Source: a virus. From it: a stretch of 28,307 nt of DNA. This document shows, one piece after another, positions 4,803 to 27,258 of this stretch. The first letter of the stretch is position 1. Every line of letters begins with the position of its first letter. The translations under genes were made by a program, and so were the position numbers. Under the pieces are notes generated by a model. It searched no databases and had not been told where the DNA came from. It was given only the letters and a program-made list of their open reading frames with translations. The stretch lies in IMG/VR virus record IMGVR_UViG_3300028553_000132, positions 1 through 28,307 of that record; one strand, given 5' to 3'.

Positions 4803-4806
4803 AAAA

Positions 4807-10624: not shown

Positions 10625-10627
10625 GAT

Positions 10628-10650
10628 AAAAGGCGCACAAGGCGCCTTTT
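10628..10650 (-). terminator. Rho-independent terminator at the end of the tRNA array
   Basis: Nine-base stem AAAAGGCGC/GCGCCTTTT with a five-base loop, then TTTTAT on the minus strand. It lies just after the last tRNA (10664). Confidence 0.8.
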
Positions 10651-10663
10651 ATTTCTTATTAGT

Positions 10664-10740
10664 TGGTGCCCTTGGCGAGACTCGAACTCGCACTAAACAG
10701 AGTTTGAACCTGCTGACTCTACCAATTGGCCTACAAGGGC
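10664..10740 (-). tRNA. tRNA-Leu(CAA)-like with short variable arm
   Basis: Acceptor GCCCTTG/CAAGGGC is perfect, the T arm GCGAG-TTCGAGT-CTCGC is perfect and ACCA is encoded. The anticodon stem GCAGG/TCTGT encloses TTCAAAC, so the anticodon is CAA (Leu). The variable region is only about five bases, whereas bacterial and T4 tRNA-Leu are class II with a long arm. Identity as Leu is therefore by anticodon only. Confidence 0.8.
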
Positions 10741-10746
10741 AAAGTG

Positions 10747-10877
10747 TTGTTTAAAGGTGGTATCAGCAATTTGTCTAGTACAAATTTATCGGGCCCAGAT
10801 GCGTTCAAACAACTATGTGTTTATTTTTACACCTACGTAAGGACTAGAATGTTTTTTATCCTTACTCCTTTAAACAA
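10747..10877 (-). ncRNA. Structured spacer closed by an 11-bp stem
   Basis: TTGTTTAAAGG and CCTTTAAACAA close a 109-base interior, which itself contains GTAAGGA/TCCTTAC. It lies between two tRNAs and looks like an RNA-processing stem rather than a gene; no ORF with a ribosome binding site is present on the minus strand. Confidence 0.45.
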
Positions 10878-10966
10878 TTTAGTAATTAGCCTAGCAATAA
10901 CCTATAGCATATCGCCGGGTCGCGGTCGACTCACTTCTCTTACACCCTCAAGGTGCAGGCTAAAAT

Positions 10967-11044
10967 TGGTTGCGGTGGGTAGGAATCGAACCTACGTATT
11001 CGGCTTATGAGACCGTGCTGGAACCACCTCCAGTCTACCCCGCA
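10967..11044 (-). tRNA. tRNA with CAT anticodon (Met or lysidine-Ile), copy 1
   Basis: The anticodon loop CTCATAA gives CAT. T arm GTAGG-TTCGATT-CCTAC is perfect and CCA is encoded. The acceptor TGCGGGG/CACCGCA has one G-A mismatch and one base is out of register near the T stem. The D arm is unusual (CTGG/CCAG). Initiator, elongator Met and Ile2 cannot be told apart. Confidence 0.75.
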
Positions 11045-11048
11045 ATAA

Positions 11049-11172
11049 TTCTGTTTTCAACTGCACTACCAAAGGACTCGAACCTTTTTCCCACTACCAA
11101 AGTTTAACACGGAATTGAACCGTCGGCCGCGCTTGTGGCGCCCACCATGGAGAAGTGCATGTGAAAACAGAA
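11049..11172 (-). repeat. tRNA-like element closed by the TTCTGTTTTCA stem, copy 1
   Basis: TTCTGTTTTCA pairs with TGAAAACAGAA (11 bp), two bases mismatch, then TGCACT pairs with AGTGCA. The interior has an anticodon-arm-like hairpin ACGG-TTCAATT-CCGT (would read CAA) and a perfect T arm AAAGG-TTCGAGT-CCTTT, with a long variable-like stretch between. The same closing stem recurs at 20235-20318. Confidence 0.6.
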
Positions 11173-11192
11173 TTGCTTCTTTACCCTGTAAT

Positions 11193-11277
11193 AAACTTAA
11201 CTAGTTGAACAGTCTCGGAAATGGAGTAGTTGTCTACTTCCAAGTGGGTCGGAACTCGAAAACTGTTCAACAAGTTT
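11193..11277 (-). repeat. Structured element closed by AAACTT...GTTGAACAGT stem
   Basis: Minus-strand AAACTT plus GTTGAACAGT pair with ACTGTTCAAC and AAGTTT, with a five-base bulge, around an inner hairpin GGAAGTAG/CTACTCC. No protein-coding signal. Confidence 0.5.
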
Positions 11278-11612
11278 AGTTTTTGCACAGGCTGAGATTA
11301 TACCGTGCGTTGAGCGCCTTTGCAGAGTACCCAGTCCCTTGCGAGGATGGTTGCCGCTTTGTCCACAAGAGCCATTTCTGGTCATCTTGTATCGCTCAGT
11401 GCTGCCTTGTTAAGGTGTGGCGTGTCACCTGTCGCACACTGCTATTCGTCCTTCTATCTTCCGCCTACCTTGCGAGCAGTTCACAGTCGCTAAACCGTTA
11501 CGTCTTCTTTCCGAACAACCACGTCCGCCTTGCGAGCTTCTGTGGACCACATTCTGTTGCCAGTGTGGTATTAAGCACCTTTCACAGTGTACCGGAGTAG
11601 TCTTTCGCTTTT

Positions 11613-11683
11613 GTTTCAAAACAGGGATTGAACCTGTGCCGATTCCTTAGAAGGGAATTACTCTACCGCTGAGTTATTTGCGA
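11613..11683 (-). tRNA. tRNA-Arg(TCT), acceptor partly mismatched, no CCA
   Basis: The anticodon arm ATTCC-CTTCTAA-GGAAT reads TCT (Arg AGA). T arm ACAGG-TTCAATC-CCTGT is perfect and the D arm is normal. Acceptor TCGCAAA/TTTGAAA mismatches at pairs 2-71 and 3-70, and no CCA follows. It may be decaying, or the sequence may contain errors. Confidence 0.65.
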
Positions 11684-12132
11684 ACCTATTGAGATGTGCT
11701 ACTCCAGTTGCACCATATCTTGTTAGATACAGTATACAACACACCTCCTGCTTTTGGCCTTGCGGGCTACTAAGCGTTACTTCAAGTATCCGGGTCCTAA
11801 CCCTTCCACTCTTGTAATGCTACTACGCCTTTGCTTGCGGGCTCAGACAGTGTAGCTACCTGTTAACTTTCAGCATTCGTTAGTTTGGCTGAACAGTGTT
11901 TGGGCGCCAACCCTTTTACTACTCACCGACCGGCTCCGTAGCTATCCTTTCGGACACTGTTCCTAACTTACTGCCTACCGCCTTTCTACGGACGGAAGTT
12001 GCTTTCGTTTGCACGAGTCAACTTTAGTTCAGGCTTGCTTAGATGGACCATTGCTGGCGCCGGTTTATAGGAAACCCGTCTTTGGGTGCATTACTGCACT
12101 TACCCTTGTATGGACGCTAAGCCGCCCATCTT

Positions 12133-12243
12133 ACTGTGTTTAAAACTATACATTGTGGAATTGAACCACCGAGTCGACCGTAAGGTCGACCTGTTCCATA
12201 ACATCGGCGCGGCCTACGCCTTATGTATAGTTTAAAACACAGT
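12133..12243 (-). ncRNA. tRNA-like domain closed by a 21-bp stem
   Basis: The minus-strand arms ACTGTGTTTTAAACTATACAT and its partner pair over 21 bases with one mismatch. Inside are a hairpin GTCGACC-TTAC-GGTCGAC resembling a long variable arm and GTGG-TTCAATT-CCAC resembling a T arm. The layout is that of a class II tRNA with a strongly extended acceptor, but no clear anticodon arm is present (TGTT-ATGG-AACA instead). Confidence 0.5.
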
Positions 12244-12251
12244 CATTACCT

Positions 12252-12266
12252 AATTTTCAAAGAACG
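12252..12266 (-). promoter_or_regulatory. BoxA-like antitermination element 2
   Basis: CGTTCTTTGAAAATT strongly resembles rRNA operon BoxA (E. coli TGCTCTTTAACAATT), bound by NusB/NusE. It lies about 30 bases downstream of the promoter at 12299-12327, and the preceding AACGCAGTTTACA is shared with the element at 20447. Confidence 0.6.
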
Positions 12267-12298
12267 TGTAAACTGCGTTGTTTGCTGCTTACTTGTTT

Positions 12299-12327
12299 AA
12301 TATAGTGTATCTTCTTGTGTTTGTCAA
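12299..12327 (-). promoter_or_regulatory. Sigma-70 promoter of the structured-RNA/tRNA unit
   Basis: TTGACA (rc of 12322-12327), 17 bases, TATATT (rc of 12299-12304). Near-perfect consensus, reading into the BoxA and the 1.2-kb structured region. Confidence 0.85.
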
Positions 12328-12345
12328 CTACTTTTTAGTCTTTTT

Positions 12346-12435
12346 TCAAACTTTTTTGCGCAGCATATTCAAGTAATCAATTAATGCTACAGTTTCTACA
12401 AACATAGTAAGCTCTTTGTCAGAATACTCAGACAT
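12346..12435 (-). CDS. 29-aa peptide gene
   Basis: ATG 12433-12435 follows GAGGAGAACAGC, an excellent ribosome binding site. The frame MSEYSDKELTMFVETVALID then YLNMLRKKV ends at TGA 12346. It has its own promoter (TTGACC-17-TATACA at 12462-12490) and ends about 20 bases before the promoter of the structured RNA. It is helical and acidic then basic. Strong signals support expression; function unknown. Confidence 0.6.
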   Translation of the reverse strand: MSEYSDKELTMFVETVALIDYLNMLRKKV

Positions 12436-12461
12436 GCTGTTCTCCTCTGTGTATCACTATG

Positions 12462-12490
12462 TATAGCATAGCGCATACACTAGGTCAACA
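12462..12490 (-). promoter_or_regulatory. Sigma-70 promoter for the 29-aa peptide
   Basis: TTGACC, 17 bases and TATACA on the minus strand, directly after the stop of the RelE-like gene and about 25 bases before the ribosome binding site of the peptide. Confidence 0.65.
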
Positions 12491-12871
12491 CTAAAATTTA
12501 CCAACCTTACAATCTTCATGAGTGCCCAAACACAACAGTTGTATTTCTCCAGGAGTTACTTTAAAAACTAATCCAATTCTAGATCCCATTAAATGCGCCC
12601 AAAGTGGTCTTTCGTACAAAGTGTGATACTGCAACATGTGAACGTTGAACTCGGGTGGATAATCTCGCATAGATGGTTGCTGATCATATTGCTCAATGAA
12701 CGACAACAGTTTTTGCAGTGGTTGCATAACTCTTGATTCTTTGCTGTACTTTTTAAAAGCACGTTTATACGCAGAAGTCTGAGATACAGTCCAACTACCT
12801 TTTTGTTCAGTTAAAACAAAAGTAGTGTAATCTGCAAGAGAGTTTGTTTCAATGATTTCAAATATTTTCAT
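12491..12871 (-). CDS. RelE/YafQ-like small protein (possible toxin fold)
   Basis: This 126-aa protein ends RIGLVFKVTPGEIQLLCLGT then HEDC, which resembles the C-terminal strands of RelE/YafQ/ParE-type mRNA interferases (L.Y...... I.LL.LGTH). The central YDQQPSMRDYPPEFNVHMLQ could position active-site residues. No antitoxin gene is adjacent, so a toxin role is only a suggestion. It opens MKIFEI behind AATAAATA-TTGT-ATG, a leader almost identical to that of the gene starting at 16574. The gene lies directly downstream of tRNA-Thr(AGT). Confidence 0.65.
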   Translation of the reverse strand: MKIFEIIETNSLADYTTFVLTEQKGSWTVSQTSAYKRAFKKYSKESRVMQPLQKLLSFIEQYDQQPSMRDYPPEFNVHMLQYHTLYERPLWAHLMGSRIGLVFKVTPGEIQLLCLGTHEDCKVGKF

Positions 12872-12875
12872 ACAA

Positions 12876-12883
12876 TATTTATT
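12876..12883 (-). promoter_or_regulatory. Late promoter-like AATAAATA abutting a start codon
   Basis: The octamer ends four bases before ATG 12869-12871 and begins five bases after the CCA of tRNA-Thr(AGT). Confidence 0.5.
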
Positions 12884-12888
12884 CTTAA

Positions 12889-12962
12889 TGGTGCCGGTAG
12901 AGAGAATCGAACTCCCGTCAGCTGATTACTAATCAGCTGCTAAACCACTCAGCTATACCGGC
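12889..12962 (-). tRNA. tRNA-Thr(AGT)
   Basis: Acceptor GCCGGTA/TACCGGC, anticodon arm GCTGA-TTAGTAA-TCAGC and T arm GGGAG-TTCGATT-CTCTC are well paired and CCA is encoded. Anticodon AGT (A34) is uncommon in bacteria. Confidence 0.88.
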
Positions 12963-12965
12963 TAA

Positions 12966-13121
12966 TTATTTGCGTACTAAAAAACAACTTTCCTCTATTC
13001 TAGATTCGTATCTATTTGGAAAAAGTTCTTCTACTACTTTATAAACATCGCCCCAGGTCGGCTCTGTTGGATACGAAAACCAGCCTTGGATTTTATTATA
13101 AAAATGTGAAATTTTACTCAT
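12966..13121 (-). CDS. 51-aa hypothetical protein
   Basis: ATG 13119-13121 opens MSKISHFYNKIQGWFSYPTE then PTWGDVYKVVEELFPNRYES and ends at TAA 12966. The aromatic, compact composition and full use of the space between tRNA-Thr and the next gene support a real gene. The ribosome binding site is weak (AGAAAG). Function unknown. Confidence 0.6.
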   Translation of the reverse strand: MSKISHFYNKIQGWFSYPTEPTWGDVYKVVEELFPNRYESRIEESCFLVRK

Positions 13122-13154
13122 CTAAATACTTTCTATTATAGAAGACGTTATTTT

Positions 13155-13328
13155 TTAATCCCACTCAAACCAGTAACCACATTGCACCCAGTCGCGCATT
13201 GCTGCGTCACAAAAGTCAACTTGTAGTTTTTCATCAGTTTCTTTGTGGATGACAGGTCCTCCGCATTCAATATTCATTAGCGAAATATATTCTTCTTTGT
13301 TCTTTTGGTAAATCCAAACGTATATCAT
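13155..13328 (-). CDS. 57-aa hypothetical protein
   Basis: ATG 13326-13328 follows AAAGGTCC. The frame MIYVWIYQKNKEEYISLMNI continues with ECGGPVIHKETDEKL and ends WVQCGYWFEWD at TAA 13155. Strand-rich with three Cys. It fills the space between tRNA-Gly(GCC) and the 51-aa gene. No family recognised. Confidence 0.6.
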   Translation of the reverse strand: MIYVWIYQKNKEEYISLMNIECGGPVIHKETDEKLQVDFCDAAMRDWVQCGYWFEWD

Positions 13329-13348
13329 GTAGAGGACCTTTCTTATCT

Positions 13349-13422
13349 TGGAGCGGGTAACGAGAATCGAACTCGTGCATTAACTTTGGCAAAGTTATAG
13401 GCTACCATTACATCATACCCGC
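13349..13422 (-). tRNA. tRNA-Gly(GCC)
   Basis: Acceptor GCGGGTA/TACCCGC, anticodon arm TAACT-TTGCCAA-AGTTA, T arm ACGAG-TTCGATT-CTCGT, discriminator U73 typical of Gly, CCA encoded. All helices pair. Confidence 0.92.
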
Positions 13423-13430
13423 ATTTTGTA

Positions 13431-13438
13431 TATTTATG
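13431..13438 (-). promoter_or_regulatory. Late promoter-like CATAAATA before tRNA-Gly(GCC)
   Basis: CATAAATATACAAAAT lies 8 bases upstream of the tRNA; an almost identical string precedes the split tRNA 5' half at 16110-16117. Confidence 0.45.
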
Positions 13439-13441
13439 ATC

Positions 13442-14014
13442 TCAATTTTCATAAAGATCTTCATAATCAAAGTCTTCATCTTCGGATAACCATTTGTCAT
13501 CCGGTGCGGCTTGATCATATTGCTTGTAATAGTCCTCATTGGGCATTAACTGCCTTATGTGAGGAATTTGTAGCTGTAATATTGTAAAATGTTTCTTGCT
13601 TGGAATGTCTGTAATAAACCAAAGTGTACCACATCCTCCGCCTGCTAAACGAATTGGTCCATGTGCCATACTACTAATAGCAGACTTTAATTTGGCACCG
13701 TGTTCAGTAATAACTCTTACAGTTTTACGGTGTTCAAGACGTAATCTGTCTGCTGGAGTCATTACTCTAATATCGGCACAGTTCTCATTGTCGATTGTAA
13801 CCACACAATCTTTGATTTTAATAGAACCTTTGGTGTGTGTGTTATCTGGCGTTTCTTTGGTGCTCCATGGAACACTACAATTTACGTGGTTAACGTAATA
13901 GGTTTCGCCTTTGAATTTGATAACCCACATAGGAATGGTCTCATCTTCTAAGTGTTTCTTGTTAAAATGAAACACTGCATCTCTACAAGCATATTCAATT
14001 TTGATCTATGACAT
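13442..14014 (-). CDS. Conserved hypothetical protein with amber codon at position 3
   Basis: The best start is ATG 14012-14014, six bases after a perfect AAGGAG (rc of 14021-14026). It reads ATG TCA TAG, then stays open for 187 more codons to TAA 13442. Protein begins IKIEYACRDAVFHFNKKHLE after the amber codon; the acidic C-terminus is EDEDFDYEDLYEN. Without readthrough the only in-frame start is GTG 13973-13975, with no ribosome binding site, giving 177 aa. WVIKFKGETYYVNHV and VPWSTKETPDN look conserved; I recall relatives in marine T4-like phages. Either the TAG is suppressed, is a sequencing error, or the gene is newly inactivated. Function unknown. Confidence 0.65.
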
Positions 14015-14045
14015 TTTATTCTCCTTGAAAGTCAATTTATAGTAA

Positions 14046-14120
14046 TGGTGCGTCCTACAGGTATCGAGCCTGCCTCCTGGGTTTTAGAAGCCCGTGACAA
14101 TCCATCTTGTCCAAGGACGC
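14046..14120 (-). tRNA. tRNA with apparent CTA anticodon (amber); Arg(TCT) is the alternative
   Basis: Acceptor GCGTCCT/AGGACGC and D stem GACA/TGTC are perfect, T arm GCAGG-CTCGATA-CCTGT pairs, CCA is encoded. Counting from the D stem, positions 27-43 are CGGGC-TTCTAAA-ACCCA, giving anticodon CTA with three G-C pairs and C-A mismatches at 27-43 and 31-39. A TCT reading (loop CTTCTAA) leaves only one stem pair. Position 54 is C rather than T. It lies 32 bases upstream of the gene with the amber third codon. Confidence 0.7.
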
Positions 14121-14127
14121 AAAAGTT

Positions 14128-14210
14128 TGGCGAGGGTGTGAGGAATCGAACCCCTAGCGGACGGTTTTGGAGACCGTTGATGGCACCAGCCAACTTTACG
14201 CGACACCGAC
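14128..14210 (-). tRNA. tRNA-Trp(CCA), copy 1, degenerate
   Basis: Anticodon arm ACGGT-CTCCAAA-ACCGT is perfect and reads CCA. Acceptor GTCGGTG/CACCCTC mismatches at pairs 2-71 and 3-70, the T stem has an A-A pair and the D arm is irregular. Discriminator G and CCA suit Trp. A better copy is at 19711-19784. Confidence 0.6.
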
Positions 14211-14211
14211 G

Positions 14212-14397
14212 TTATTCTTTTGGTTGTTCTGCTGTTACTGAATCAGTAATTTGAGGATCTACAGTTGTTTCAACTGTAGGAGGATTAATAAGAGTGTCTG
14301 TGACAACTTTTATTACACCTTCGTAAAATACTGCAAATGCTGCTAAAAATGCGGCTGCAATACCAGCTATAATCTTTTTCTTGTGTTCAGCAAACAT
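14212..14397 (-). CDS. Small single-pass membrane protein
   Basis: This 61-aa protein has a basic start (MFAEHKKK), one hydrophobic helix (IIAGIAAAFLAAFAVFYEGV) and a polar Thr/Pro-rich tail (PPTVETTVDPQ). The topology would be N-in with the tail outside. A holin or spanin-type lysis role is possible but no family is recognised. AAGGAGAAC precedes the ATG and CATAAATA (14423-14430) lies 26 bases upstream, a textbook late promoter spacing. Confidence 0.7.
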   Translation of the reverse strand: MFAEHKKKIIAGIAAAFLAAFAVFYEGVIKVVTDTLINPPTVETTVDPQITDSVTAEQPKE

Positions 14398-14422
14398 AAT
14401 GTTCTCCTTGTGTTTTGCAAGT

Positions 14423-14430
14423 TATTTATG
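14423..14430 (-). promoter_or_regulatory. Late promoter-like CATAAATA
   Basis: Octamer 26 bases upstream of the membrane protein start at 14397, with AAGGAG in between, so this gene would have a normal leader. Confidence 0.5.
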
Positions 14431-14730
14431 TACATGCAAAAAAAATTAAACAAGTCCCGATCAGCATTCTGTTTATAACAGAGCCACCGCCTCACGACCC
14501 GAGCGTAAAAGCCACGGACCGCTTGTTTGTCCCCACCGCGTTGCTGGATCTCACGTATTAGTCGATCCGAAAGTTGTCCAGCATTACGACCACATTGTGG
14601 TATCTAGATCAACAGTTTAAAATTGCAGAGCAGTTTTACAACGTTTATTTCTACTCAGGTTGTAACCAGTTTAACGACCTGTATATTTCGCCAGCTTTAG
14701 CTAAGGTCGAGTCTTGACATAAGACTCCTA
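14431..14730 (-). other. Gene-free structured spacer in the tRNA array
   Basis: No supported ORF on either strand. Minus-strand hairpins include ACCACAATGTGGT, GCTGGA/TCCAGC around a 28-base interior, and a bulged pairing of AAACAAG...GGTCC with GGGACTTGTTT. It resembles the other IR-closed spacers rather than a decayed gene; no tRNA is recognisable. Confidence 0.4.
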
Positions 14731-14806
14731 TGGCTGGGTGGGCAGGATTCGAACCTGCAACCTGCGCATTCAAAGTGCGTTGCTCTACCAATTGAGCTAC
14801 CTCCCA
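14731..14806 (-). tRNA. tRNA-Gln(TTG)
   Basis: Anticodon arm ACGCA-CTTTGAA-TGCGC reads TTG. Acceptor TGGGAGG/CCACCCA starts with T-A, as in T4 tRNA-Gln, with one A-A mismatch at pair 5-68. T arm GCAGG-TTCGAAT-CCTGC is perfect; discriminator G and CCA encoded. Confidence 0.88.
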
Positions 14807-14888
14807 AAATAGTTTTAGTGTATTAAGTTATTGATGTTCATTTTTCACCTTGGTTGTCTACGTAGACTCTAATGTCAACAACTATTCT

Positions 14889-14967
14889 TGGTTGCGGGAG
14901 GGGCGCTTGAATCCCCCAGAGTTCTTGGTTATGAGCCAAGTGACTAACCATCTTGTCCTTCCCGGCA
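14889..14967 (-). tRNA. tRNA with CAT anticodon, copy 2, irregular
   Basis: Anticodon arm CTTGG-CTCATAA-CCAAG is perfect (CAT). The acceptor TGC-C-GGGA/TCCCGCA has an extra C on the 5' side, and the T arm GGGG-GATTCAAGCG-CCCC has a ten-base loop instead of seven. CCA is encoded. Single-base insertions (real or artefact) explain all deviations. Confidence 0.65.
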
Positions 14968-14993
14968 CAGTGTTCTGTGTTGTAGTAAGTTTT

Positions 14994-15056
14994 TGGTGCG
15001 GGTAAAGAGACTCTAACCCTCTACCTGCGTTGCTCTACCAATTGAGCTACCTCCCA
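14994..15056 (-). pseudogene. Hybrid tRNA remnant: Gln 5' half joined to another 3' half
   Basis: The first 31 bases, up to the anticodon stem ACGCA, are identical to tRNA-Gln(TTG) at 14776-14806. They continue directly into GGTAGAGGGTTAGAGTCTCT and TTACCCGCACCA, which resembles the 3' half at 15283-15316. No anticodon loop remains. It is 63 bases long and cannot fold as a tRNA. Confidence 0.8.
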
Positions 15057-15063
15057 AAAATTC

Positions 15064-15261
15064 TTATTCTGTTGCTTTAGCAACACCTACTGCGGTGTCA
15101 GTTAAGTATCGCAACACAACGTTTGCAAAGCCTACAACTAGCATTATAATTGGTTCGCTGCCTGGTGCAACAACATTAATCAAACCTGATAGTTCACCAA
15201 TACCTGCTAAAATAGTTGCAACGTTAAAAATAATAGTCCTGTAACCTTTTAAAAATGTCAT
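15064..15261 (-). CDS. Holin-like small membrane protein
   Basis: This 65-aa protein starts MTFLKGYRTIIFNVATILAG, and has two hydrophobic helices (about 9-28 and 35-55) joined by INVVAPGSEP, ending VVLRYLTDTAVG. The KGYRTIIFN start and LRYLT end are typical of a phage class II holin-like family. Holins time lysis by permeabilising the inner membrane. No endolysin is adjacent. ATG follows AAGGAGAAATATA. The family call rests on pattern recall. Confidence 0.65.
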   Translation of the reverse strand: MTFLKGYRTIIFNVATILAGIGELSGLINVVAPGSEPIIMLVVGFANVVLRYLTDTAVGVAKATE

Positions 15262-15282
15262 TATATTTCTCCTTTTCTAATT

Positions 15283-15316
15283 TGGTGCGGGTAGAGGGAC
15301 TCGAGTCCCTCTCGCA
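15283..15316 (-). pseudogene. 3' half of a split tRNA (partner of 16077-16098)
   Basis: AGAGGGACTCGAGTCCCTCT forms a T arm and TACCCGC-ACCA completes an acceptor whose 5' partner GCGGGTA is absent here but present at 16092-16098. Between them lie tRNA-Leu(TAG) and an HNH gene. No anticodon arm is seen in either half. Confidence 0.65.
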
Positions 15317-15331
15317 GTTTAATAGTATAAT

Positions 15332-15408
15332 TGGTACCCCTGGAGGGACTCGAACCCCCAAACTACCGGACCTAAGCCGGACGACTTTACCAATTTGCCC
15401 ACAGGGGC
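15332..15408 (-). tRNA. tRNA-Leu(TAG)-like with short variable arm
   Basis: Acceptor GCCCCTG/CAGGGGT (one G-T), anticodon arm TCCGG-CTTAGGT-CCGGT reads TAG (Leu CUA), T arm GGGGG-TTCGAGT-CCCTC, CCA encoded. The variable region is five bases, so it is class I, unlike normal tRNA-Leu. Its first base is the G of the HNH gene's TAG stop. Confidence 0.82.
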
Positions 15409-16034
15409 TAAATTGAATCAATTAGTTTATACTGGAATAATACTTTCTTTACAGTTGTAGCACTACCCCAGTTATATCCTAACTCTTTCAACGTAGTATT
15501 CATACTATTATTATTTTTAAATGCAGCAATAATTTCTTCATCGCTACATTTTCTAACTTGCTTTCCTTGGCGCTGTCCTACTTTCCAAGTATCAGTAATA
15601 CTATGGCAGTTGGGGCAAAGACATCTCAAGTTGCTTCTAACATTGTTTTTGTTGTTTCCGTCAATGTGATCCAACTCTAATGTTATACGCAAACCCATCC
15701 ACTCGTTAAGTTTGCAATGCGAGCATTTATATTCCTGCTCTTCCATTACAATCTTTTTGCGCAGCCTATGTCCAAGTTCTTCAAAAGATTTCTTTTCTAC
15801 TAACCTGCGTCTATGACTAATATGCGATTTCTCACGCATTTCATCTGTAAAGACAGGTACTCTTCCTTCAGCATGGGCTTGCTTTAAGCCTTTGCTGTTC
15901 TTTGCTCTGTTAGCAGGACAACTATTAGAACTGTTAGCACATCTGTACCTGCCTGTGCCTTTACTAAAATATTGCGCCGGCTGGCCACAGCCACTATCGC
16001 ACCGTTTTCCTTGTGGTATAACTATATTATTCAT
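15408..16034 (-). CDS. HNH homing endonuclease 1 with C-terminal DNA-binding helix
   Basis: This 208-aa protein has an N-terminal zinc-knuckle-like part (Cys12, Cys16, Cys32, Cys39), then a treble-clef HNH core: Cys104/Cys107, ELDHIDGNNKNN at 120-131 with Asp122-His123, and CPNCHS at 140-145 with the terminal His144. The last 45 residues (CSDEEIIAAFKNNNSMNTTL onwards) look like a helix-turn-helix that would select the target site. It ends flush with tRNA-Leu(TAG), and tRNA halves flank the HNH-tRNA pair. Its 5' leader carries GATAAATA (16040-16047) close to the start. Likely a mobile gene of the tRNA array. Confidence 0.88.
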   Translation of the reverse strand: MNNIVIPQGKRCDSGCGQPAQYFSKGTGRYRCANSSNSCPANRAKNSKGLKQAHAEGRVPVFTDEMREKSHISHRRRLVEKKSFEELGHRLRKKIVMEEQEYKCSHCKLNEWMGLRITLELDHIDGNNKNNVRSNLRCLCPNCHSITDTWKVGQRQGKQVRKCSDEEIIAAFKNNNSMNTTLKELGYNWGSATTVKKVLFQYKLIDSI

Positions 16035-16039
16035 ATAGT

Positions 16040-16047
16040 TATTTATC
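16040..16047 (-). promoter_or_regulatory. Late promoter-like GATAAATA of HNH gene 1
   Basis: The octamer ends five bases before the ATG at 16034. A hairpin AAATTAG/CTAATTT lies just upstream. Confidence 0.45.
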
Positions 16048-16076
16048 TAAATTAGTAGACAAACGCTAATTTGTTC

Positions 16077-16098
16077 CTACCAATTGGCCTATACCCGC
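16077..16098 (-). pseudogene. 5' half of a split tRNA (partner of 15283-15316)
   Basis: GCGGGTATAGGCCAATTGGTAG is a 5' acceptor strand plus D arm, broken in the D loop. Its acceptor pairs perfectly with TACCCGC at 15286-15292. A late-type CATAAATA lies at 16110-16117. Confidence 0.65.
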
Positions 16099-16109
16099 AT
16101 TATTTTGTA

Positions 16110-16117
16110 TATTTATG
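16110..16117 (-). promoter_or_regulatory. Late promoter-like CATAAATA before the split tRNA half
   Basis: CATAAATATACAAAATAATG runs into GCGGGTA, matching the leader of tRNA-Gly(GCC) at 13431. Confidence 0.45.
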
Positions 16118-16136
16118 TTCTTGTACAATTTTGTAA

Positions 16137-16574
16137 TTAAATTATAGTAACTTCTACTGGTTGTTTGAGAACATCAGTAACATAGGTACTCCTATGATGT
16201 CCACCTAATAACCAAATCCCACCAGTTTCAGGATCTTGAAGATATATAGGACGCTCTACTTGCTTGTCTTTTCCGTATAGCTTTGGTGCGCGGGCGCTTT
16301 TTGCAGGTTCAGTCCATTTGAGCGTACCAGTCCAACTATCACCTGTATTGCCTGCGCCTCTTACATCGTTCCTAGACAACAACTTTATTTTTGCCCTTGC
16401 AAGTGCAGCACGAAATACTCTCTTGTCTGCTAGTTTCTGCAAACGTTCATGCACCCAATCTGGCATCCACTGCGGATCGTAATTTTCAAGTTGATAAAGA
16501 ACTTCGTTATGCTCCTGATCTGCGTTAGGAGCAATCCAATTTATTTTACCTTGATAAATTTCAAATATTTTCAT
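16137..16574 (-). CDS. Hypothetical 145-aa protein with ParB/sulfiredoxin-like GGHHRS motif
   Basis: It starts MKIFEIYQGKINW and ends with PIYLQDPETGGIWLLGGHHR followed by STYVTDVL, where a strand followed by GGHHR.. resembles the nucleotide-binding GxHR of ParB/Srx-fold proteins. The middle is basic (ALARAKIKLLSRNDVR). A match to that fold is only suggestive. AATAAATA-CTGT-ATG is its leader, shared with the gene at 12871, and tRNA-Cys lies directly upstream. Confidence 0.65.
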   Translation of the reverse strand: MKIFEIYQGKINWIAPNADQEHNEVLYQLENYDPQWMPDWVHERLQKLADKRVFRAALARAKIKLLSRNDVRGAGNTGDSWTGTLKWTEPAKSARAPKLYGKDKQVERPIYLQDPETGGIWLLGGHHRSTYVTDVLKQPVEVTII

Positions 16575-16578
16575 ACAG

Positions 16579-16586
16579 TATTTATT
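16579..16586 (-). promoter_or_regulatory. Late promoter-like AATAAATA abutting a start codon
   Basis: Ends four bases before ATG 16572-16574. The 29 bases around this start match those at 12871 with a single difference. Confidence 0.5.
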
Positions 16587-16589
16587 ATT

Positions 16590-16671
16590 TGGAGGTCGAT
16601 GTGAGAATTGAACTCACTACTTACGTGCCTGGGATTTGCAATCCCGCCCCTTACCATCCGGGCCACCGACC
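16590..16671 (-). tRNA. tRNA-Cys(GCA)
   Basis: Anticodon loop TTGCAAA reads GCA, acceptor GGTCGGT/ATCGACC pairs apart from one wobble-type pair, T arm GTGAG-TTCAATT-CTCAC is perfect, and U73 with CCA is the Cys discriminator. The variable region is unusually long (about 12 bases). Confidence 0.88.
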
Positions 16672-16680
16672 ATTTAGTTT

Positions 16681-16756
16681 TGGTGCCCCCAGCGAGAATC
16701 GAACTCACTATCTTCGGGTTACAAATCCGTTGCATCGCCAGCAATGCTTTAGGGGC
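16681..16756 (-). tRNA. tRNA-Thr(TGT)
   Basis: Anticodon loop TTTGTAA reads TGT; acceptor GCCCCTA/TGGGGGC and T arm GTGAG-TTCGATT-CTCGC pair, CCA encoded. The anticodon stem has mismatches at 27-43 (A-A) and 31-39 (A-C). Confidence 0.87.
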
Positions 16757-16771
16757 GTTGTATTGTCTATA

Positions 16772-17038
16772 TTATAAATGTTTCTCTTTGTCAAGAACAA
16801 TGTGCAAATAATCATATACAGCTTCATATGAGTTGAACATTCGTGTTCCGTGCCGGCTTATGACTCTCACAATACTACCATAACAGTGTATTAGGCCAAA
16901 TCCTGAGTAACGTCCGTTACCAAGTCTACGTGTATTCCATCTAGTTTTTTTTGCTACAGGTTTGTTGTAAACGTGTGCTATTCCTAGTATTTCTGAGCAT
17001 TGTTCGTAAAATGCTCTCTTTTCATCTTCAGTTTTCAT
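16772..17038 (-). CDS. Hypothetical 88-aa protein
   Basis: It starts MKTEDEKRAFYEQCSEILGI, with a basic middle (KPVAKKTRWNTRRL) and an aromatic, mixed C-terminus. ATG follows TGAGAGGACAAT, a fair ribosome binding site. It lies between tRNA-Gly(TCC) and tRNA-Thr(TGT). No known motif. Confidence 0.65.
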   Translation of the reverse strand: MKTEDEKRAFYEQCSEILGIAHVYNKPVAKKTRWNTRRLGNGRYSGFGLIHCYGSIVRVISRHGTRMFNSYEAVYDYLHIVLDKEKHL

Positions 17039-17063
17039 ATTGTCCTCTCACATACGGATTATT

Positions 17064-17137
17064 TGGAGCGGGTAACGAGATTCGAACTCGTGACAAGAGC
17101 TTGGAAGGCTCGCATGTTACCGCTACACCATACCCGC
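17064..17137 (-). tRNA. tRNA-Gly(TCC)
   Basis: Acceptor GCGGGTA/TACCCGC, anticodon arm CGAGC-CTTCCAA-GCTCT, T arm ACGAG-TTCGAAT-CTCGT, U73 and CCA. Acceptor and T arm are the same as in tRNA-Gly(GCC), suggesting duplication. Confidence 0.92.
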
Positions 17138-17289
17138 AATTTTGACGGTGTTTGTTAACGCAGACCGACAACTGCTTCACAATTCAATTTCGTCACGCAG
17201 CCCCCTGCCCGCTCGTGGCGTGACCCAACCATTTTCCGCCCAATCCGAATCAACGGGCTAAACGCAAACTTTGAGTCTTCCTTTATTAA
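17138..17289 (-). other. Gene-free spacer in the tRNA array
   Basis: No supported gene. CACGC and GCGTG arms and a partial GTTTG/CAAAC closing stem are visible on the minus strand; it is GC-richer than the neighbouring genes. Confidence 0.35.
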
Positions 17290-17363
17290 TGGCGACCGAT
17301 ACGGGACTCGAACCCGTTTTACCTGGTGGACAGCCAAGTGTAATACCCATATACCAATCGGCC
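17290..17363 (-). tRNA. tRNA-Asp(GTC)
   Basis: Anticodon arm CTTGG-CTGTCCA-CCAGG reads GTC. Acceptor GGCCGAT/ATCGGTC and T arm ACGGG-TTCGAGT-CCCGT pair; discriminator G73 suits Asp; CCA encoded. Confidence 0.92.
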
Positions 17364-17500
17364 TAAAACACTGTATACTATCTCGTTCCAAACCAACATC
17401 CAGTGTTGATATGCTTTCAAAAGCCCCGCACTGTTATTTCAAACAGTTGCTCACGTTGCTATGCTTACGCTACTTGAGGGTTCACAGTGTGCGTTTAATT

Positions 17501-17592
17501 TGGCAGACAGGGTGGGATTCGAACCCACGGAACGCTACTAACGTTCGACGGTTTTCAAGACCGTTGTAATAATCCATCTCTACCACCTGTCC
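17501..17592 (-). tRNA. tRNA-Ser(TGA)
   Basis: Class II tRNA with variable arm GAACG-TTAGTAG-CGTTC. Anticodon arm ACGGT-CTTGAAA-ACCGT reads TGA; acceptor GGACAGG/CCTGTCT, T stem and CCA present, G73. Confidence 0.92.
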
Positions 17593-17596
17593 GTAT

Positions 17597-17631
17597 TGGT
17601 GCGGAATGACGGACTCGAACCGCCCACCTCG
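17597..17631 (-). pseudogene. 3' half of a split tRNA (partner of 18147-18167)
   Basis: GGCGG-TTCGAGT-CCGTC is a T arm, followed by ATTCCGC-ACCA. Its acceptor pairs 6 of 7 (one A-C, one G-T wobble) with GCAGGAT at 18161-18167. Between lie tRNA-Val(TAC) and HNH gene 2. No anticodon arm is present. Confidence 0.55.
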
Positions 17632-17639
17632 CTATAGTT

Positions 17640-17714
17640 TGGTGCGTGAAGAGGGTATCGAACCCCCGACCTGAGGTGTGTAAAACCCCTGCTCTACCAC
17701 TGAGCTACCCACGC
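17640..17714 (-). tRNA. tRNA-Val(TAC)
   Basis: Anticodon arm GGGGT-TTTACAC-ACCTC reads TAC; acceptor GCGTGGG/TTCACGC pairs with two G-T; T arm GGGGG-TTCGATA-CCCTC; CCA encoded. The HNH gene 2 stop codon TAG is formed by positions 8-10 of this tRNA. Confidence 0.9.
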
Positions 17715-18115
17715 AACTTATCTCTATATTTACGTTGATATCTGCTTCTTGCAGAGTTCTTTTTATTTCTGCCTTTAAAAGTGTCAGTTTGACTATGACA
17801 GTTTGGGCATAACAAACGTAAATTGTTAGGAAAATTGTTATCACTGTCACCGTCAACATGATCAACAGTAAGTGTTAATGGTTTTCCATTGTAAGAATTC
17901 CCAACATTGCATTCTTCACAATGTTCTCCTCTAGTCTCAACTAAGTATTTTTTTAGTGCTGGACTACCGTCACTCACCAAACCTGTTTCGACTTCAAGTT
18001 TCTTTTTAGAATTCCATTTGTGTTGTTGAAAACAATCTCCGTTGCAATACTTATTTGTAGTGCTATGTTTCCAATTGTTTTCTTTACCGCAGTTTAAGCA
18101 AAAAAATGTTTTCAT
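17705..18115 (-). CDS. HNH homing endonuclease 2
   Basis: This 136-aa protein has an N-terminal zinc finger (Cys6, Cys9, Cys24, Cys28), then the HNH core: Cys66/Cys69, LTVDHVDGDSDNN at 82-94 with Asp85-His86, Asn98, and CPNCHSQTD at 103-111 with His107. A basic tail (KGRNKKNSARSRYQRKYRDK) follows. The last codons are inside tRNA-Val. The leader has GATAAATA inside a hairpin that would hide AGGAG and the start codon. It is similar to HNH 3 in layout. Confidence 0.88.
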   Translation of the reverse strand: MKTFFCLNCGKENNWKHSTTNKYCNGDCFQQHKWNSKKKLEVETGLVSDGSPALKKYLVETRGEHCEECNVGNSYNGKPLTLTVDHVDGDSDNNFPNNLRLLCPNCHSQTDTFKGRNKKNSARSRYQRKYRDKLRG

Positions 18116-18152
18116 TGGTAGAGTATCTCCTATTTAAAGTATTTATCTACCA
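18116..18152 (-). promoter_or_regulatory. Start-hiding hairpin with internal late promoter, HNH gene 2
   Basis: TGGTAG (rc of 18147-18152) pairs with CTACCA next to the ATG; the loop holds GATAAATA (18140-18147) and AGGAG. A transcript from the late promoter would lack the 5' arm, so the site would be open only late, as described for T4 I-TevI. Confidence 0.55.
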
Positions 18153-18167
18153 CTGCGCCAATCCTGC
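18147..18167 (-). pseudogene. 5' half of a split tRNA (partner of 17597-17631)
   Basis: GCAGGATTGGCGCAGTGGTAG is an acceptor strand plus D arm (GGCGCAGTGGTAG is typical), cut in the D loop. The terminal TGGTAG doubles as the 5' arm of the HNH gene 2 hairpin. Confidence 0.55.
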
Positions 18168-18266
18168 ATTGTTTTGGTATCAACCAAGGACTTGAACCTT
18201 GAGCACAACCAGCACGACGCCTGTGATGCCACTGCTGCCTGCAAACCTGCATTGATATATTTCGAG
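18168..18266 (-). other. Spacer with a 3' tRNA fragment
   Basis: CAAGG-TTCAAGT-CCTTG followed by GTTGATACCA is a T arm with acceptor 3' strand and CCA, but no matching 5' strand (TATCAAC) is nearby. The upstream rest has no recognisable gene. Confidence 0.4.
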
Positions 18267-18344
18267 GGGTTGACCCGTTGCACCTTGAACAAACATTCTA
18301 GACTATTTGTTCTTCCTTGTTGCCAAGGCTCAGTGTGTCAACCC
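18267..18344 (-). ncRNA. Structured spacer closed by GGGTTGAC/GTCAACCC
   Basis: Eight-base closing stem with inner hairpins GAACAAA/TTTGTTC and CCTTG-GCAA-CAAGG. It sits between tRNA-Ala and the spacer above. No ORF. Confidence 0.45.
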
Positions 18345-18351
18345 AACTTAT

Positions 18352-18424
18352 TGGTGGACCGTATGGGAATCGAACCCATTGACAGCGATCTTGCAAGGAT
18401 CACCCGTTACCCATAACACAGCCC
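18352..18424 (-). tRNA. tRNA-Ala(TGC)
   Basis: Anticodon arm TGATC-CTTGCAA-GATCG reads TGC. Acceptor GGGCTGT/ACGGTCC pairs with two wobbles at 3-70 and 5-68 (the 3-70 G-T is the Ala identity pair). T arm ATGGG-TTCGATT-CCCAT perfect; short D loop; CCA encoded. Confidence 0.88.
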
Positions 18425-18532
18425 AAAACTATCTAAAGGAGACCAATCCTCTAGTAGGTAGACGCCGCATAGTCGCCGTTGTGAGCTTGGTCTTGCTCGG
18501 CATATGACCAGTGGCGGCAATCTACAATATAT
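18425..18532 (-). other. Spacer without a recognisable gene
   Basis: 108 bases between tRNA-Ala and tRNA-Ser(GCT). A short hairpin around TCTAAAGGAG.../...CTCTAGTA is visible; no tRNA or ORF is supported. Confidence 0.3.
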
Positions 18533-18620
18533 TGGCGGAGCGTCTGGGAATCGAACCCAGTCTACCCTTGCGAGTAGTACAGATTAGCAATCTGCTGCAT
18601 TACCATCCTGCCCACGCTCC
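18533..18620 (-). tRNA. tRNA-Ser(GCT)
   Basis: Class II tRNA with variable arm CTACTC-GCAA-GGGTAG. Anticodon arm GCAGA-TTGCTAA-TCTGT reads GCT; acceptor GGAGCGT/ACGCTCC perfect, T arm CTGGG-TTCGATT-CCCAG, G73, CCA. Confidence 0.93.
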
Positions 18621-18626
18621 AAATAA

Positions 18627-18857
18627 TTAATCTTTTCTGTGTGGTGCTTGCATATTAGCACGATCCAACTGCGTATTGCCACGATCTAAATAATAAGGAT
18701 CGTGGTTAAGTGCTGCTGCTACGTGATCTGCTACACTCTGGATTTGAGTGGTAACACACACAGTGGTAGTTCCAGATCGCACTTGCCATCGTTTAATGTT
18801 AGGTTCTGCTGTTGACGTATATGGATATACTTTGAAGTCATTACGCACTTTCGTCAT
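18627..18857 (-). CDS. Hypothetical 76-aa protein
   Basis: It starts MTKVRNDFKVYPYTSTAEPN, with a beta-like KRWQVRSGTTTVCVTT and a helical SVADHVAAALN, then an Asp/Arg/Gln-rich tail. ATG follows AAAGGAAAGCAA. A possible 31-aa frame upstream overlaps it as ATGA. No family recognised. Confidence 0.65.
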   Translation of the reverse strand: MTKVRNDFKVYPYTSTAEPNIKRWQVRSGTTTVCVTTQIQSVADHVAAALNHDPYYLDRGNTQLDRANMQAPHRKD

Positions 18858-18949
18858 TTGCTTTCCTTTGCAGTTAATTTAAACGCAAGAAGCACCGTTG
18901 CTACGCATTGAGACTGCCGTGTTGATCTTCTTGCTTTGGCTCTAACCAT
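18854..18949 (-). CDS. Possible 31-aa basic peptide
   Basis: ATG 18947-18949 opens MVRAKARRSTRQSQCVATVL then LAFKLTAKESK, ending as ATGA overlap with the next gene. GAGAG lies close to the ATG. The start lies in a repeated RNA spacer, so coding is uncertain. Confidence 0.3.
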   Translation of the reverse strand: MVRAKARRSTRQSQCVATVLLAFKLTAKESK

Positions 18950-18998
18950 CTCTCGGTTGACTTAGCTGCTTTGAAATCAAGCAGTACCGTGTTGTATC
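18950..18998 (-). repeat. Spacer repeat CACGGTACTGC, copy 2
   Basis: AACACGGTACTGC with a following GCAGCTAAGTC and, further on, TAGAGCCA match the spacer at 19890-19955. Downstream, CAACACGGCAGTCTC near 18910 is a third, weaker copy. Confidence 0.5.
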
Positions 18999-19076
18999 TG
19001 GTCTGGGTGACTGGATTTGAACCAGCGACTTCTTGCTTCCAAGGCAAGCACTCTACACAAGCTGAGCTACACCCAG
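18999..19076 (-). tRNA. tRNA-Pro(TGG)
   Basis: Anticodon arm CTTGC-CTTGGAA-GCAAG reads TGG; acceptor CTGGGTG/CACCCAG perfect; T arm GCTGG-TTCAAAT-CCAGT; CCA encoded. It lies 12 bases downstream of HNH gene 3. Confidence 0.92.
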
Positions 19077-19088
19077 ATAATTTTTGTA

Positions 19089-19532
19089 TTATCCGTATTG
19101 CGGCAAACCTAACGCCTTACGACCTTTGCCTGTATTCTTAGCCCCAAATGTTGCTTGTTGACTGTCACAGTTAGGGCATACTAGTTGAAAGTTATCAGGA
19201 TGATTGTTTGTAGCATTACCATCTATATGGTCACACCATAAACTAATTGTCTTGCCGTTCCATTCCGTTATGCCGCAACAGTTACACTTGTTACCATCAC
19301 GTTTAATTACAAACTCTCTAATTAGTGCTCTAGGATGCTTAACATCTAAGTCCTTTCCGTCTAACCAGTCGTTGTAGCGGCGTTCTCGTAGTGCAATAGC
19401 ATTAGCCTTTGCCCCTAACCTACTACATTCTAAACTACAGTATCTGTGGTTACTACTATAACCTTTAAACACAAATTCTGTGCCACAATGTTCGCAGTTA
19501 AACGTTTTGTCTTTTGTGCCTTTATAATTCAT
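19089..19532 (-). CDS. HNH-family protein 3 with altered last catalytic residue
   Basis: This 147-aa protein has an N-terminal zinc finger (Cys13, Cys16, Cys32, Cys36) like HNH 2, then Cys83/Cys86, WCDHIDGNATNN at 99-110 with Asp101-His102, Asn114, and CPNCDSQQ at 119-126. The residue that is His in HNH 1 and 2 is Asp123 here, so cleavage may be weakened or lost. Its leader has GATAAATA (19565-19572) within a GGTAGAG/CTCTACC hairpin next to AGAAGGA and the ATG. It lies just upstream of tRNA-Pro. Confidence 0.85.
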   Translation of the reverse strand: MNYKGTKDKTFNCEHCGTEFVFKGYSSNHRYCSLECSRLGAKANAIALRERRYNDWLDGKDLDVKHPRALIREFVIKRDGNKCNCCGITEWNGKTISLWCDHIDGNATNNHPDNFQLVCPNCDSQQATFGAKNTGKGRKALGLPQYG

Positions 19533-19534
19533 AT

Positions 19535-19579
19535 GGTAGAGTCCTTCTAAAAATATTACATTTTTATTTATCCTCTACC
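19535..19579 (-). promoter_or_regulatory. Start-hiding hairpin with internal late promoter, HNH gene 3
   Basis: GGTAGAG (rc of 19573-19579) pairs with CTCTACC just before CATATG; the loop contains GATAAATA (19565-19572), an inner AAAAAT/ATTTTT hairpin and AGAAGGA. Same design as HNH gene 2. Confidence 0.55.
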
Positions 19580-19586
19580 GTTAAAT

Positions 19587-19664
19587 TGGCTCGGGGAGTC
19601 GGATTCGAACCGACCTCATTCTCGGTTAACAGCCGAGCGCTATCGCCTAGACAGCTCTCCCCGA
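19587..19664 (-). tRNA. tRNA-Asn(GTT), copy 1
   Basis: Anticodon arm CTCGG-CTGTTAA-CCGAG reads GTT; acceptor TCGGGGA/TCCCCGA and T arm GTCGG-TTCGAAT-CCGAC perfect; G73 and CCA encoded. Confidence 0.92.
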
Positions 19665-19670
19665 ATAGTT

Positions 19671-19695
19671 TCTTTAGTCCAACTGAGCTAATTAG
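19671..19695 (-). pseudogene. D-arm fragment of a tRNA
   Basis: TTAGCTCAGTTGGACTAAAG is a typical position 8-21 tRNA string without the rest; probably a remnant between tRNA-Trp and tRNA-Asn copy 1. Confidence 0.4.
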
Positions 19696-19710
19696 AAACA
19701 ATAATTTATT

Positions 19711-19784
19711 TGGCACCGGTGCAGAGAGTCGAACTCTGGCCCTCAGTTTTGGAGACTGATGTGCTGCCGTAACACTTCACCGAT
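19711..19784 (-). tRNA. tRNA-Trp(CCA), copy 2
   Basis: Anticodon arm TCAGT-CTCCAAA-ACTGA reads CCA; acceptor ATCGGTG/CACCGGT with one T-G; T arm AGAG-TTCGACT-CTCT; G73 and CCA. Better paired than copy 1. Confidence 0.9.
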
Positions 19785-19792
19785 ATTGTCTT

Positions 19793-19870
19793 TGGCTCCC
19801 TCTGCTGGACTCGAACCGACCTCATTCTCGGTTAACAGCCGAGCACCATCACCTGGATAGCTTAGAGGGA
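19793..19870 (-). tRNA. tRNA-Asn(GTT), copy 2
   Basis: Shares 34 identical bases (GCTCGG...TTCGA) with copy 1 over the anticodon and T regions but has a different, perfect acceptor TCCCTCT/AGAGGGA. The T stem 3' strand CCAGC leaves one C-A mismatch. Confidence 0.85.
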
Positions 19871-19987: not shown

Positions 19988-20119
19988 ATGATGATAAAAA
20001 AGATTTGGTCCATTTTACTACCATGTATAATAATAGCTAGTTTTCTACTAGCTGTTAACAATCTAATCACTACCCACCATAATAATCAACTTTTGTTAGA
20101 AATTATTAATAGTAAGTAG
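19988..20119 (+). CDS. 43-aa single-pass membrane peptide, plus strand
   Basis: The frame MMIKKIWSILLPCIIIASFL continues LAVNNLITTHHNN and ends at TAG 20117-20119. Basic start, one hydrophobic helix and a polar tail give a standard small inner-membrane protein, possibly lysis or envelope related. It directly follows TATAAATA and has no Shine-Dalgarno sequence; the second ATG may be used. It runs against the tRNA array. Confidence 0.55.
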   Translation: MMIKKIWSILLPCIIIASFLLAVNNLITTHHNNQLLLEIINSK

Positions 20120-20122
20120 CGT

Positions 20123-20234
20123 GATTTGCGCCTCGGTGTAGCCTAGGCTGCTACATGTGATCACTTAAGACGTTGCGCTATTGCGCTTGTGGCCTTTTTA
20201 TTTTAGTATCCGATACTTGCATCGGGCGCAAATC
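20123..20234 (-). ncRNA. Structured leader element closed by GATTTGCGCC/GGCGCAAATC
   Basis: A perfect 10-bp closing stem with inner hairpins GCGC/GCGC and GTAGC/GCTAC. It follows the next element without a gap and precedes the first tRNAs of the array. Confidence 0.5.
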
Positions 20235-20318
20235 ATTCTGTTTTCAGCTACACAAAAACTTAGCATAACGACCCAGCTGCTAGTCCTCTGTTAGCGTTTG
20301 TGTATGTGAAAACAGAAT
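20235..20318 (-). ncRNA. Structured leader element with the TTCTGTTTTCA stem, copy 2
   Basis: ATTCTGTTTTCA pairs with TGAAAACAGAAT, then after two mismatched bases TACACAAA pairs with TTTGTGTA. The outer stem is identical to that at 11049-11172; the interior differs. Confidence 0.6.
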
Positions 20319-20446
20319 TTCCAATGTTCTTGCGAACATCTTCAACACAGGAACGTACAGACATATTCGTCAGTTTGTTCTTCTGCTTCAGCCCGGTCAT
20401 CGCTTACGCTAGGGGCTTGTCCTAGTAAACTAGGAACATTCAATTA
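20319..20446 (-). other. Leader segment with small hairpins
   Basis: Between BoxA and the IR-closed elements; hairpins TCCTAG-TTTA-CTAGGA and GTTC-GCAA-GAAC are visible. No coding signal. Confidence 0.4.
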
Positions 20447-20461
20447 AATTTTCAAAGAGCG
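20447..20461 (-). promoter_or_regulatory. BoxA-like antitermination element 1
   Basis: CGCTCTTTGAAAATT resembles rRNA BoxA closely (GCTCTTT core). A hairpin GTAAC-GCAA-GTTAC lies just upstream, as BoxB does in some antitermination leaders. Confidence 0.65.
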
Positions 20462-20500
20462 TGTAACTTGCGTTACGTTTTGTTTTCTGTTTGTTTAGTT

Positions 20501-20529
20501 AATATAGCGTAGTTAGTTTGCTATGTCAA
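20501..20529 (-). promoter_or_regulatory. Sigma-70 promoter P2 of the tRNA array
   Basis: TTGACA (rc of 20524-20529), 17 bases, TATATT (rc of 20501-20506). Confidence 0.88.
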
Positions 20530-20593
20530 CTGTTTTTTCTTTTTTGTTTTTGGAACTTTAAGTTTCTCAACTGTCTGCGTTCTCTATGTATGT

Positions 20594-20622
20594 GTTATAT
20601 AGTGTGTGCCTGTGCTTGTCAA
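20594..20622 (-). promoter_or_regulatory. Sigma-70 promoter P1 of the tRNA array
   Basis: TTGACA (rc of 20617-20622), 17 bases, TATAAC (rc of 20594-20599). It is in tandem with P2, 93 bases apart. Confidence 0.85.
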
Positions 20623-20644: not shown

Positions 20645-20677
20645 AAAAAACCCTCCTAGTTTTGCTAGGAGGGTTTT
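20645..20677 (-). terminator. Strong rho-independent terminator upstream of the tRNA array
   Basis: 13-bp stem AAAACCCTCCTAG/CTAGGAGGGTTTT with a five-base loop and six T on the minus strand. It isolates the array promoters from the operon upstream and may also work weakly on the plus strand. Confidence 0.9.
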
Positions 20678-26635: not shown

Positions 26636-26684
26636 TTTAGAACTCCTCTAAAGTTAATGCCAAACTCACTGTTTGGACTTTTTC

Positions 26685-27253: not shown

Positions 27254-27258
27254 ATTTC

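Follow-up and report, generated by a model that had tools for sequence, protein, structure and literature searches.

In the nut sites of lambdoid phages a boxB hairpin follows BoxA, and CRISPR arrays, which give long untranslated transcripts, also have BoxA leaders. GOLLD is a large RNA cage whose function is unknown. Its proximity to tRNAs and the presence of a tRNA inside it were already known (PMC12286853). Outside rRNA, BoxA is used by suhB, and the published survey of BoxA states that non-coding RNAs were not considered (PMC5725501). In rRNA operons boxB and boxA lie in that order just after P2, and the sequence of boxC is reported to be less important than pairing (PMC10250234). The leader of E. 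coli rrnB, which we fetched for comparison, consists of TTGACT-16-TATTAT, a GCCGCT/AGCGGC hairpin, AC and TGCTCTTTAACAATTT.

All relevant elements of the window, by which we mean the whole 28.3-kb virus record analysed here, are on its minus strand (Table 1). What the site 1 leader shares with the E. coli rrn leader is a set of strong sigma-70 promoters, a hairpin just 5' of BoxA, a BoxA that fits GYTCTTTRAMA, a long untranslated RNA with tRNAs downstream and a second BoxA further along. It differs in being phage-borne, in having neither rRNA nor boxC, and in its cargo of tRNA arrays and GOLLD. No rRNA genes were found in the window, and because no 16S or 23S rRNA is driven we describe the leader as working like the rrn type, not as a member of it. 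Like the leaders of CRISPR arrays and suhB it places BoxA outside rRNA, and CRISPR arrays likewise give long untranslated transcripts; those leaders, in contrast, serve chromosomal genes.

Table 1. Elements identified in the window, listed along the minus strand
Feature	Position	Strand	Basis or remark
Intrinsic-terminator-like hairpin (CCCTCCTAG...CTAGGAGGG, then T run)	20645..20676	-	sequence; fold -20.3 kcal/mol
Promoter P1: TTGACA 20622-20617, 17 nt, TATAAC 20599-20594	20594..20622	-	predicted start ~20587
Promoter P2: TTGACA 20529-20524, 17 nt, TATATT 20506-20501	20501..20529	-	predicted start ~20494
boxB-like hairpin GTAAC-GCAA-GTTAC (GNRA loop), 2 nt 5' of BoxA	20463..20476	-	fold
Site 1 BoxA CGCTCTTTGAAAATT	20447..20461	-	matches GYTCTTTRAMA
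Structured RNA directly 3' of site 1 BoxA	20100..20446	-	fold z -4.3 over 20090-20500
Array of 18 co-directional tRNA genes; small ORFs lie between them, one for an HNH endonuclease	10664..19870	-	ARAGORN
Site 2 promoter TTGACA-17-TATATT	12299..12327	-	sequence
Site 2 BoxA GTTCTTTGAAAATT	12252..12265	-	sequence
First helix of GOLLD transcript 5' region, 21-nt arms	12133..12243	-	fold z -5.05
Conserved 3' domain of GOLLD RNA	11289..11747	-	RF02032, 182.3 bits vs cut-off 150
tRNA-Arg embedded in GOLLD RNA	11613-11683	-	within 11289..11747
Second copy of AATTCTGTTTTCACATGCAC/GTGCAGTTGAAAACAGAATT stem, past GOLLD	11047..11174	-	sequence, fold
One further tRNA	10971-11043	-	Rfam
Terminator-like hairpin past last tRNA (Leu)	10624..10654	-	sequence, fold

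The two near-perfect promoters, the GNRA hairpin and the BoxA of the original prediction are all where it had placed them, and its reading of the region as a control region like that of an rRNA operon has survived every sequence-level test that we ran. The order is that of P2-boxB-boxA in E. coli rrnB, with boxC missing: after the two window BoxAs the best matches to boxC (UCUGUGUGGG) were 5/10 and 6/10, compared to 10/10 in rrnB, and in the other leaders boxC showed no excess over shuffles. As in an rrn-type leader, sigma-70 promoters lie shortly upstream of BoxA (P1 and P2 at site 1, a single promoter at site 2) and a boxB hairpin precedes it, clearly at site 1 and weakly at site 2. The predicted fold agrees with the site 1 GNRA hairpin, the stability of which is no greater than that of shuffles (z -0.17). 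With promoters defined by an exact TTGACA and a -10 of at least 5/6, the window contains five, all on the minus strand, where 300 dinucleotide shuffles have 0.54 on average; promoters with GYTCTTTRAMAATT within 65 nt occur twice in the window and not once in 300 dinucleotide shuffles.

Near and distant DNA searches of INPHARED with the leader region gave no match. The whole P1-P2-BoxA block of site 1 is present in two relatives (L173 and L154). Both retain the TTGACA and TATA columns of P1 and have TTGACA-17-TAAGTT as the counterpart of P2, and the invariant columns, amid divergence, take in most BoxA positions and the -35 hexamers.

Terminator-like hairpins lie at both ends of the unit. The upstream one is predicted to insulate the array from upstream genes, and the one past the last tRNA is likely the end of the unit, which is thus ~10 kb long and not about 8 kb as originally proposed. 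The structured RNA that follows site 1 includes the long stem AATTCTGTTTTCACATACAC/GTGTAGCTGAAAACAGAAT; all of its Rfam matches were below cut-off and it belongs to no known family. A recurring stem, in which CTGTTTTCACATRCRC pairs with GYGYAGNTGAAAACAG and encloses a variable insert, occurs in the window at 20231-20319 and at 11044-11174, and also in L150 (88-173 and 470-607), L158 and L134, in places right 3' of BoxA and 5' of tRNAs. No Rfam family matches it above cut-off; a novel small RNA and a processing stem are both possible. Another recurring leader RNA, with the motif ~CTTAGrGGwAACyCGATrATAGA, is found shortly 3' of BoxA in L151, L158, L162 and L164. Within the array, a 34-nt tRNA segment is exactly repeated at 14776-14809 and 15026-15059, 250 nt apart, which suggests recent tRNA duplication and decay. 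Other window genes encode ClpP, UvdE, a PTPS/QueD-like protein and an ATP-dependent DNA ligase, and at 25184-28176 a NadV-like nicotinamide phosphoribosyltransferase lies near a NUDIX-domain protein, a pair that suggests phage NAD salvage. Relatives of the NadV gene have tRNA arrays in places and almost no BoxA in their flanks.

A second leader, absent from the original prediction, lies at 12327-12252 on the minus strand, directly 5' of a GOLLD RNA. The 28-nt blocks that end in BoxA at the two sites (12252-12279 and 20447-20474) are 89% identical, and the first GOLLD helix begins 9 nt 3' of the site 2 BoxA. The RNA passes the RF02032 gathering cut-off over the full model (1-416), and resembles other members of the family in lying near tRNAs and in having a tRNA inside. 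An embedded tRNA is likewise contained in the GOLLD of the roseobacter phages DSS3_MAL1 and MD18 and of Caulobacter phage Magneto. What differs from published accounts of the family is the link to BoxA: we found no paper that connects BoxA with GOLLD or with phage tRNA arrays, in a search that did not cover most subscription-journal papers. The original prediction likewise named no description of a T4-like phage with this layout on its tRNA array, and a BoxA leader on these arrays and on GOLLD is apparently undescribed before.

Looking across phage collections, an rRNA-like leader on tRNA arrays and GOLLD is common to many unrelated phages. We scanned IMG/VR, without using knowledge of tRNAs or GOLLD, for TTGACA-(16-18)-TATANT-(15-45)-GYTCTTTGAAAATT and found 29 contigs, compared to 0 with a reversed-BoxA control; a promoter with the BoxA variant GCTCTTTAAMAAT occurs in 97 contigs. 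Of 99 distinct leaders, 72 have at least 1.5 kb downstream. A same-strand tRNA lies within 1.5 kb in 33 of these 72 and an opposite-strand tRNA in none, and the background rate is 0.5% (38 other viral contigs). In many arrays the first tRNA begins 12-16 nt from the end of BoxA. GOLLD exceeds the Rfam cut-off in 11 of the 29 contigs from the first scan. In the reverse approach, a scan for the GOLLD 3' motif, verified with RF02032, yielded 42 clusters that have 1 kb or more of upstream sequence. GYTCTTTRA lies 740-1060 nt 5' of that motif in 21 of them (shuffle mean 0.34), and in none on the opposite strand or in the neighbouring 380-700 region. The remaining half or so have no canonical BoxA near the 5' end, and some of these GOLLD genes have a strong promoter there. 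Since 'distinct' leaders are merely non-identical and some are related, there have been fewer independent origins than these counts suggest. A ROOL search over 45 BoxA contigs gave zero matches, as did the controls. Sixteen stretches from the GOLLD 3' pattern scan of genome contigs, which had no BoxA upstream and no RF02032 check, were taken as chance matches.

The original prediction had suggested looking for BoxA next to tRNA arrays in related phages. In many phages, isolated ones among them, the leader recurs 5' of tRNA arrays and GOLLD RNAs. Each of the roseobacter phages DSS3_MAL1 and MD18, the latter a Phaeobacter phage, has a single BoxA (GCTCTTTGACAATTT), which lies just 3' of a hairpin and ~118 nt 5' of the tRNA that opens a tRNA-GOLLD-tmRNA array. 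Scans of T4, KVP40, Felix O1, phiAS5, ICP1 and Caulobacter phage Magneto gave no match to the leader motif. The window had originally been called T4-like; we found nothing that ties it to T4, which itself is without the motif. In Serratia phage BF and Cronobacter phage GAP32 the motif falls within coding genes, in antisense orientation, and these matches were discarded as chance. Given phages such as T4 that do not have the motif, GOLLD genes without BoxA, and the leaders among protein genes in Proteus phage Stubb, we consider the leader common, not universal, and not restricted to RNA genes.

BoxA was also noted in several individual phage genomes. In Stubb (NC_048086), five copies lie at 4799-6194 in the pre-early region of this T5-like phage, among protein genes and at least some of them 3' of promoters, which suggests Nus-dependent early transcription. 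Alishewanella phage Slicko01 (OQ508956) has three copies within 700 nt (8107, 8341 and 8775), in a setting of small ORFs and ORF-free gaps, and the first two follow TTGACA promoters. In Stenotrophomonas phage RAS14 (OP752703; L357), a TTGACA promoter and GTTCTTTAACAATT lie inside a tRNA array on the minus strand (~305160-304200), and the ~950 nt that follow, without annotation or long ORF, are a candidate large RNA.

Judged by sequence, the phage BoxA variants resemble those in the rRNA operons of alphaproteobacteria and Bacteroidia. Several sampled alphaproteobacterial genomes, not all, have GCTCTTTGACA or GCTCTTTGAAA in their rRNA operons, and GCTCTTTGACA is the variant found in roseobacter phages. 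The window's BoxA has G at position 8, like alphaproteobacteria, where gammaproteobacteria have A (GYTCTTTAANA; PMC5725501). The best-covered INPHARED matches of the window GOLLD are DSS3_MAL1 and MD18, which agrees with that G, although no host has been established for the window phage. Bacteroidia rRNA operons have GTTCTTTGAAAA, GAAAT, GAATG or GAATT. The variants GTTCTTTGAAAA, GAAAT and GAATT recur in a large group of GOLLD leaders, which has a GTTCTTTGAAA/GAAT BoxA with TAnnTTTG-like upstream sequence. This group matches what is expected of Bacteroidota phages, the hosts being unconfirmed. Because the host of the window phage and those of most metagenomic contigs are unknown, the fit to hosts consists of two isolates plus inference.

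The sequences themselves show which elements the window holds and in what order, that many phages repeat them on tRNA arrays and GOLLD, and that the BoxA variants resemble those in the rRNA operons of two bacterial groups. From these observations we infer, with a probability of roughly 0.78, that the region is an rrn-type Nus-factor leader that keeps host RNA polymerase going through a long, mostly untranslated phage operon. Host RNA polymerase would start at P1 and P2, and host NusB and S10 (NusE) would bind BoxA as it leaves the polymerase. With NusA and NusG, and with SuhB and S4 where present, they would form a Rho-resistant polymerase complex, which could read on through the ~10 kb of tRNAs, structured RNAs and GOLLD, a unit that is for the most part not translated. 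The second leader would reload the system before GOLLD and add initiation for this giant RNA, much as a second BoxA precedes 23S in rRNA operons. Use of the promoters is predicted, and Nus binding and Rho resistance are inferred from the rRNA system in the absence of expression or binding data, as are antitermination and any help to RNA folding.

Alternatively, the leader may be a lambda-type nut site, in which BoxA and a hairpin bound by a phage N-like protein bring antitermination under phage control, and not a copy of the rRNA system. Lambdoid phages do use BoxA, and their nut sites share with the window a phage-borne BoxA 3' of a strong promoter; moreover, around half of the leaders lack a tRNA in their vicinity and some, in Stubb, lie among protein genes. 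Counter to this, the strongly enriched hairpin is on the other side of BoxA. In 28 of the 44 distinct leaders that precede a tRNA or GOLLD, a hairpin with five or more Watson-Crick pairs ends no more than 5 nt 5' of BoxA (shuffle mean 2.75, maximum 8), as in the window, whereas boxB of nut sites is 3'. Hairpins 3' of BoxA show only a weak enrichment, which is the same for leaders with tRNA (14/47, compared to 7.1 in shuffles) and for those without (14/52, compared to 6.8). The stems that precede BoxA, often with GNRA loops, vary in sequence among phages, so it is pairing and not sequence that is conserved, unlike a single protein-binding boxB. We used shuffles in place of pair counts because the MAFFT alignment of the hairpin leaders was not structure-consistent. 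The cargo of tRNAs and structured RNA also differs from that of lambdoid nut sites, and no N-like protein has been identified, the window being a 28-kb fragment. A nut site appears unlikely.

Still less probable, in our view, is that the motif is a folding or processing signal of GOLLD and tRNA precursor RNAs, unrelated to Nus factors. The BoxA does lie at the extreme 5' end of predicted transcripts, and the RNAs are flanked by recurring stems. However, the same 11-14 nt precedes GOLLD, plain tRNAs (12-16 nt away) and unrelated structured RNAs, and is also found among protein genes; the motif is thus not tied to one RNA, and its variants resemble the BoxA variants of rRNA operons. Chance, whether as strong promoters beside an AT-rich BoxA look-alike or as joint inheritance without function, could draw on the shortness of BoxA and on the antisense matches inside coding sequence in phages BF and GAP32, and is strongly disfavoured given 0 joint promoter and BoxA occurrences in shuffles, 0 reversed-control contigs, the strand-specific tRNA association, motif columns conserved amid divergence, and enrichment in independent GOLLD clusters.

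If the region is indeed an rrn-type leader, a broader and much more speculative possibility is that in several bacterial groups phages have more than once assembled an 'rRNA-like operon' for tRNA arrays and GOLLD, each with a host-type BoxA. The tether of BoxA, NusB and S10 might then not only block Rho but also loop the nascent RNA, letting the GOLLD cage and the tRNA precursors fold and undergo processing co-transcriptionally, as has been proposed for 16S rRNA. We put this forward tentatively, and consider it somewhat doubtful.

The Nus-factor leader would add a further use of BoxA to those known from rRNA, lambdoid phages, suhB and CRISPR arrays, and its pattern can serve as a search tool for unannotated phage RNAs, the RAS14 gap being one example. 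For GOLLD it offers a regulatory handle: a start site and a leader, and with them a probable need for host Nus factors. The prediction that follows is that phages with such arrays would be sensitive to loss of nusB or suhB. More generally, an unprotected polymerase would be expected to fall to Rho in a long, untranslated tRNA array, and the leader suggests a testable way in which phages express such arrays.
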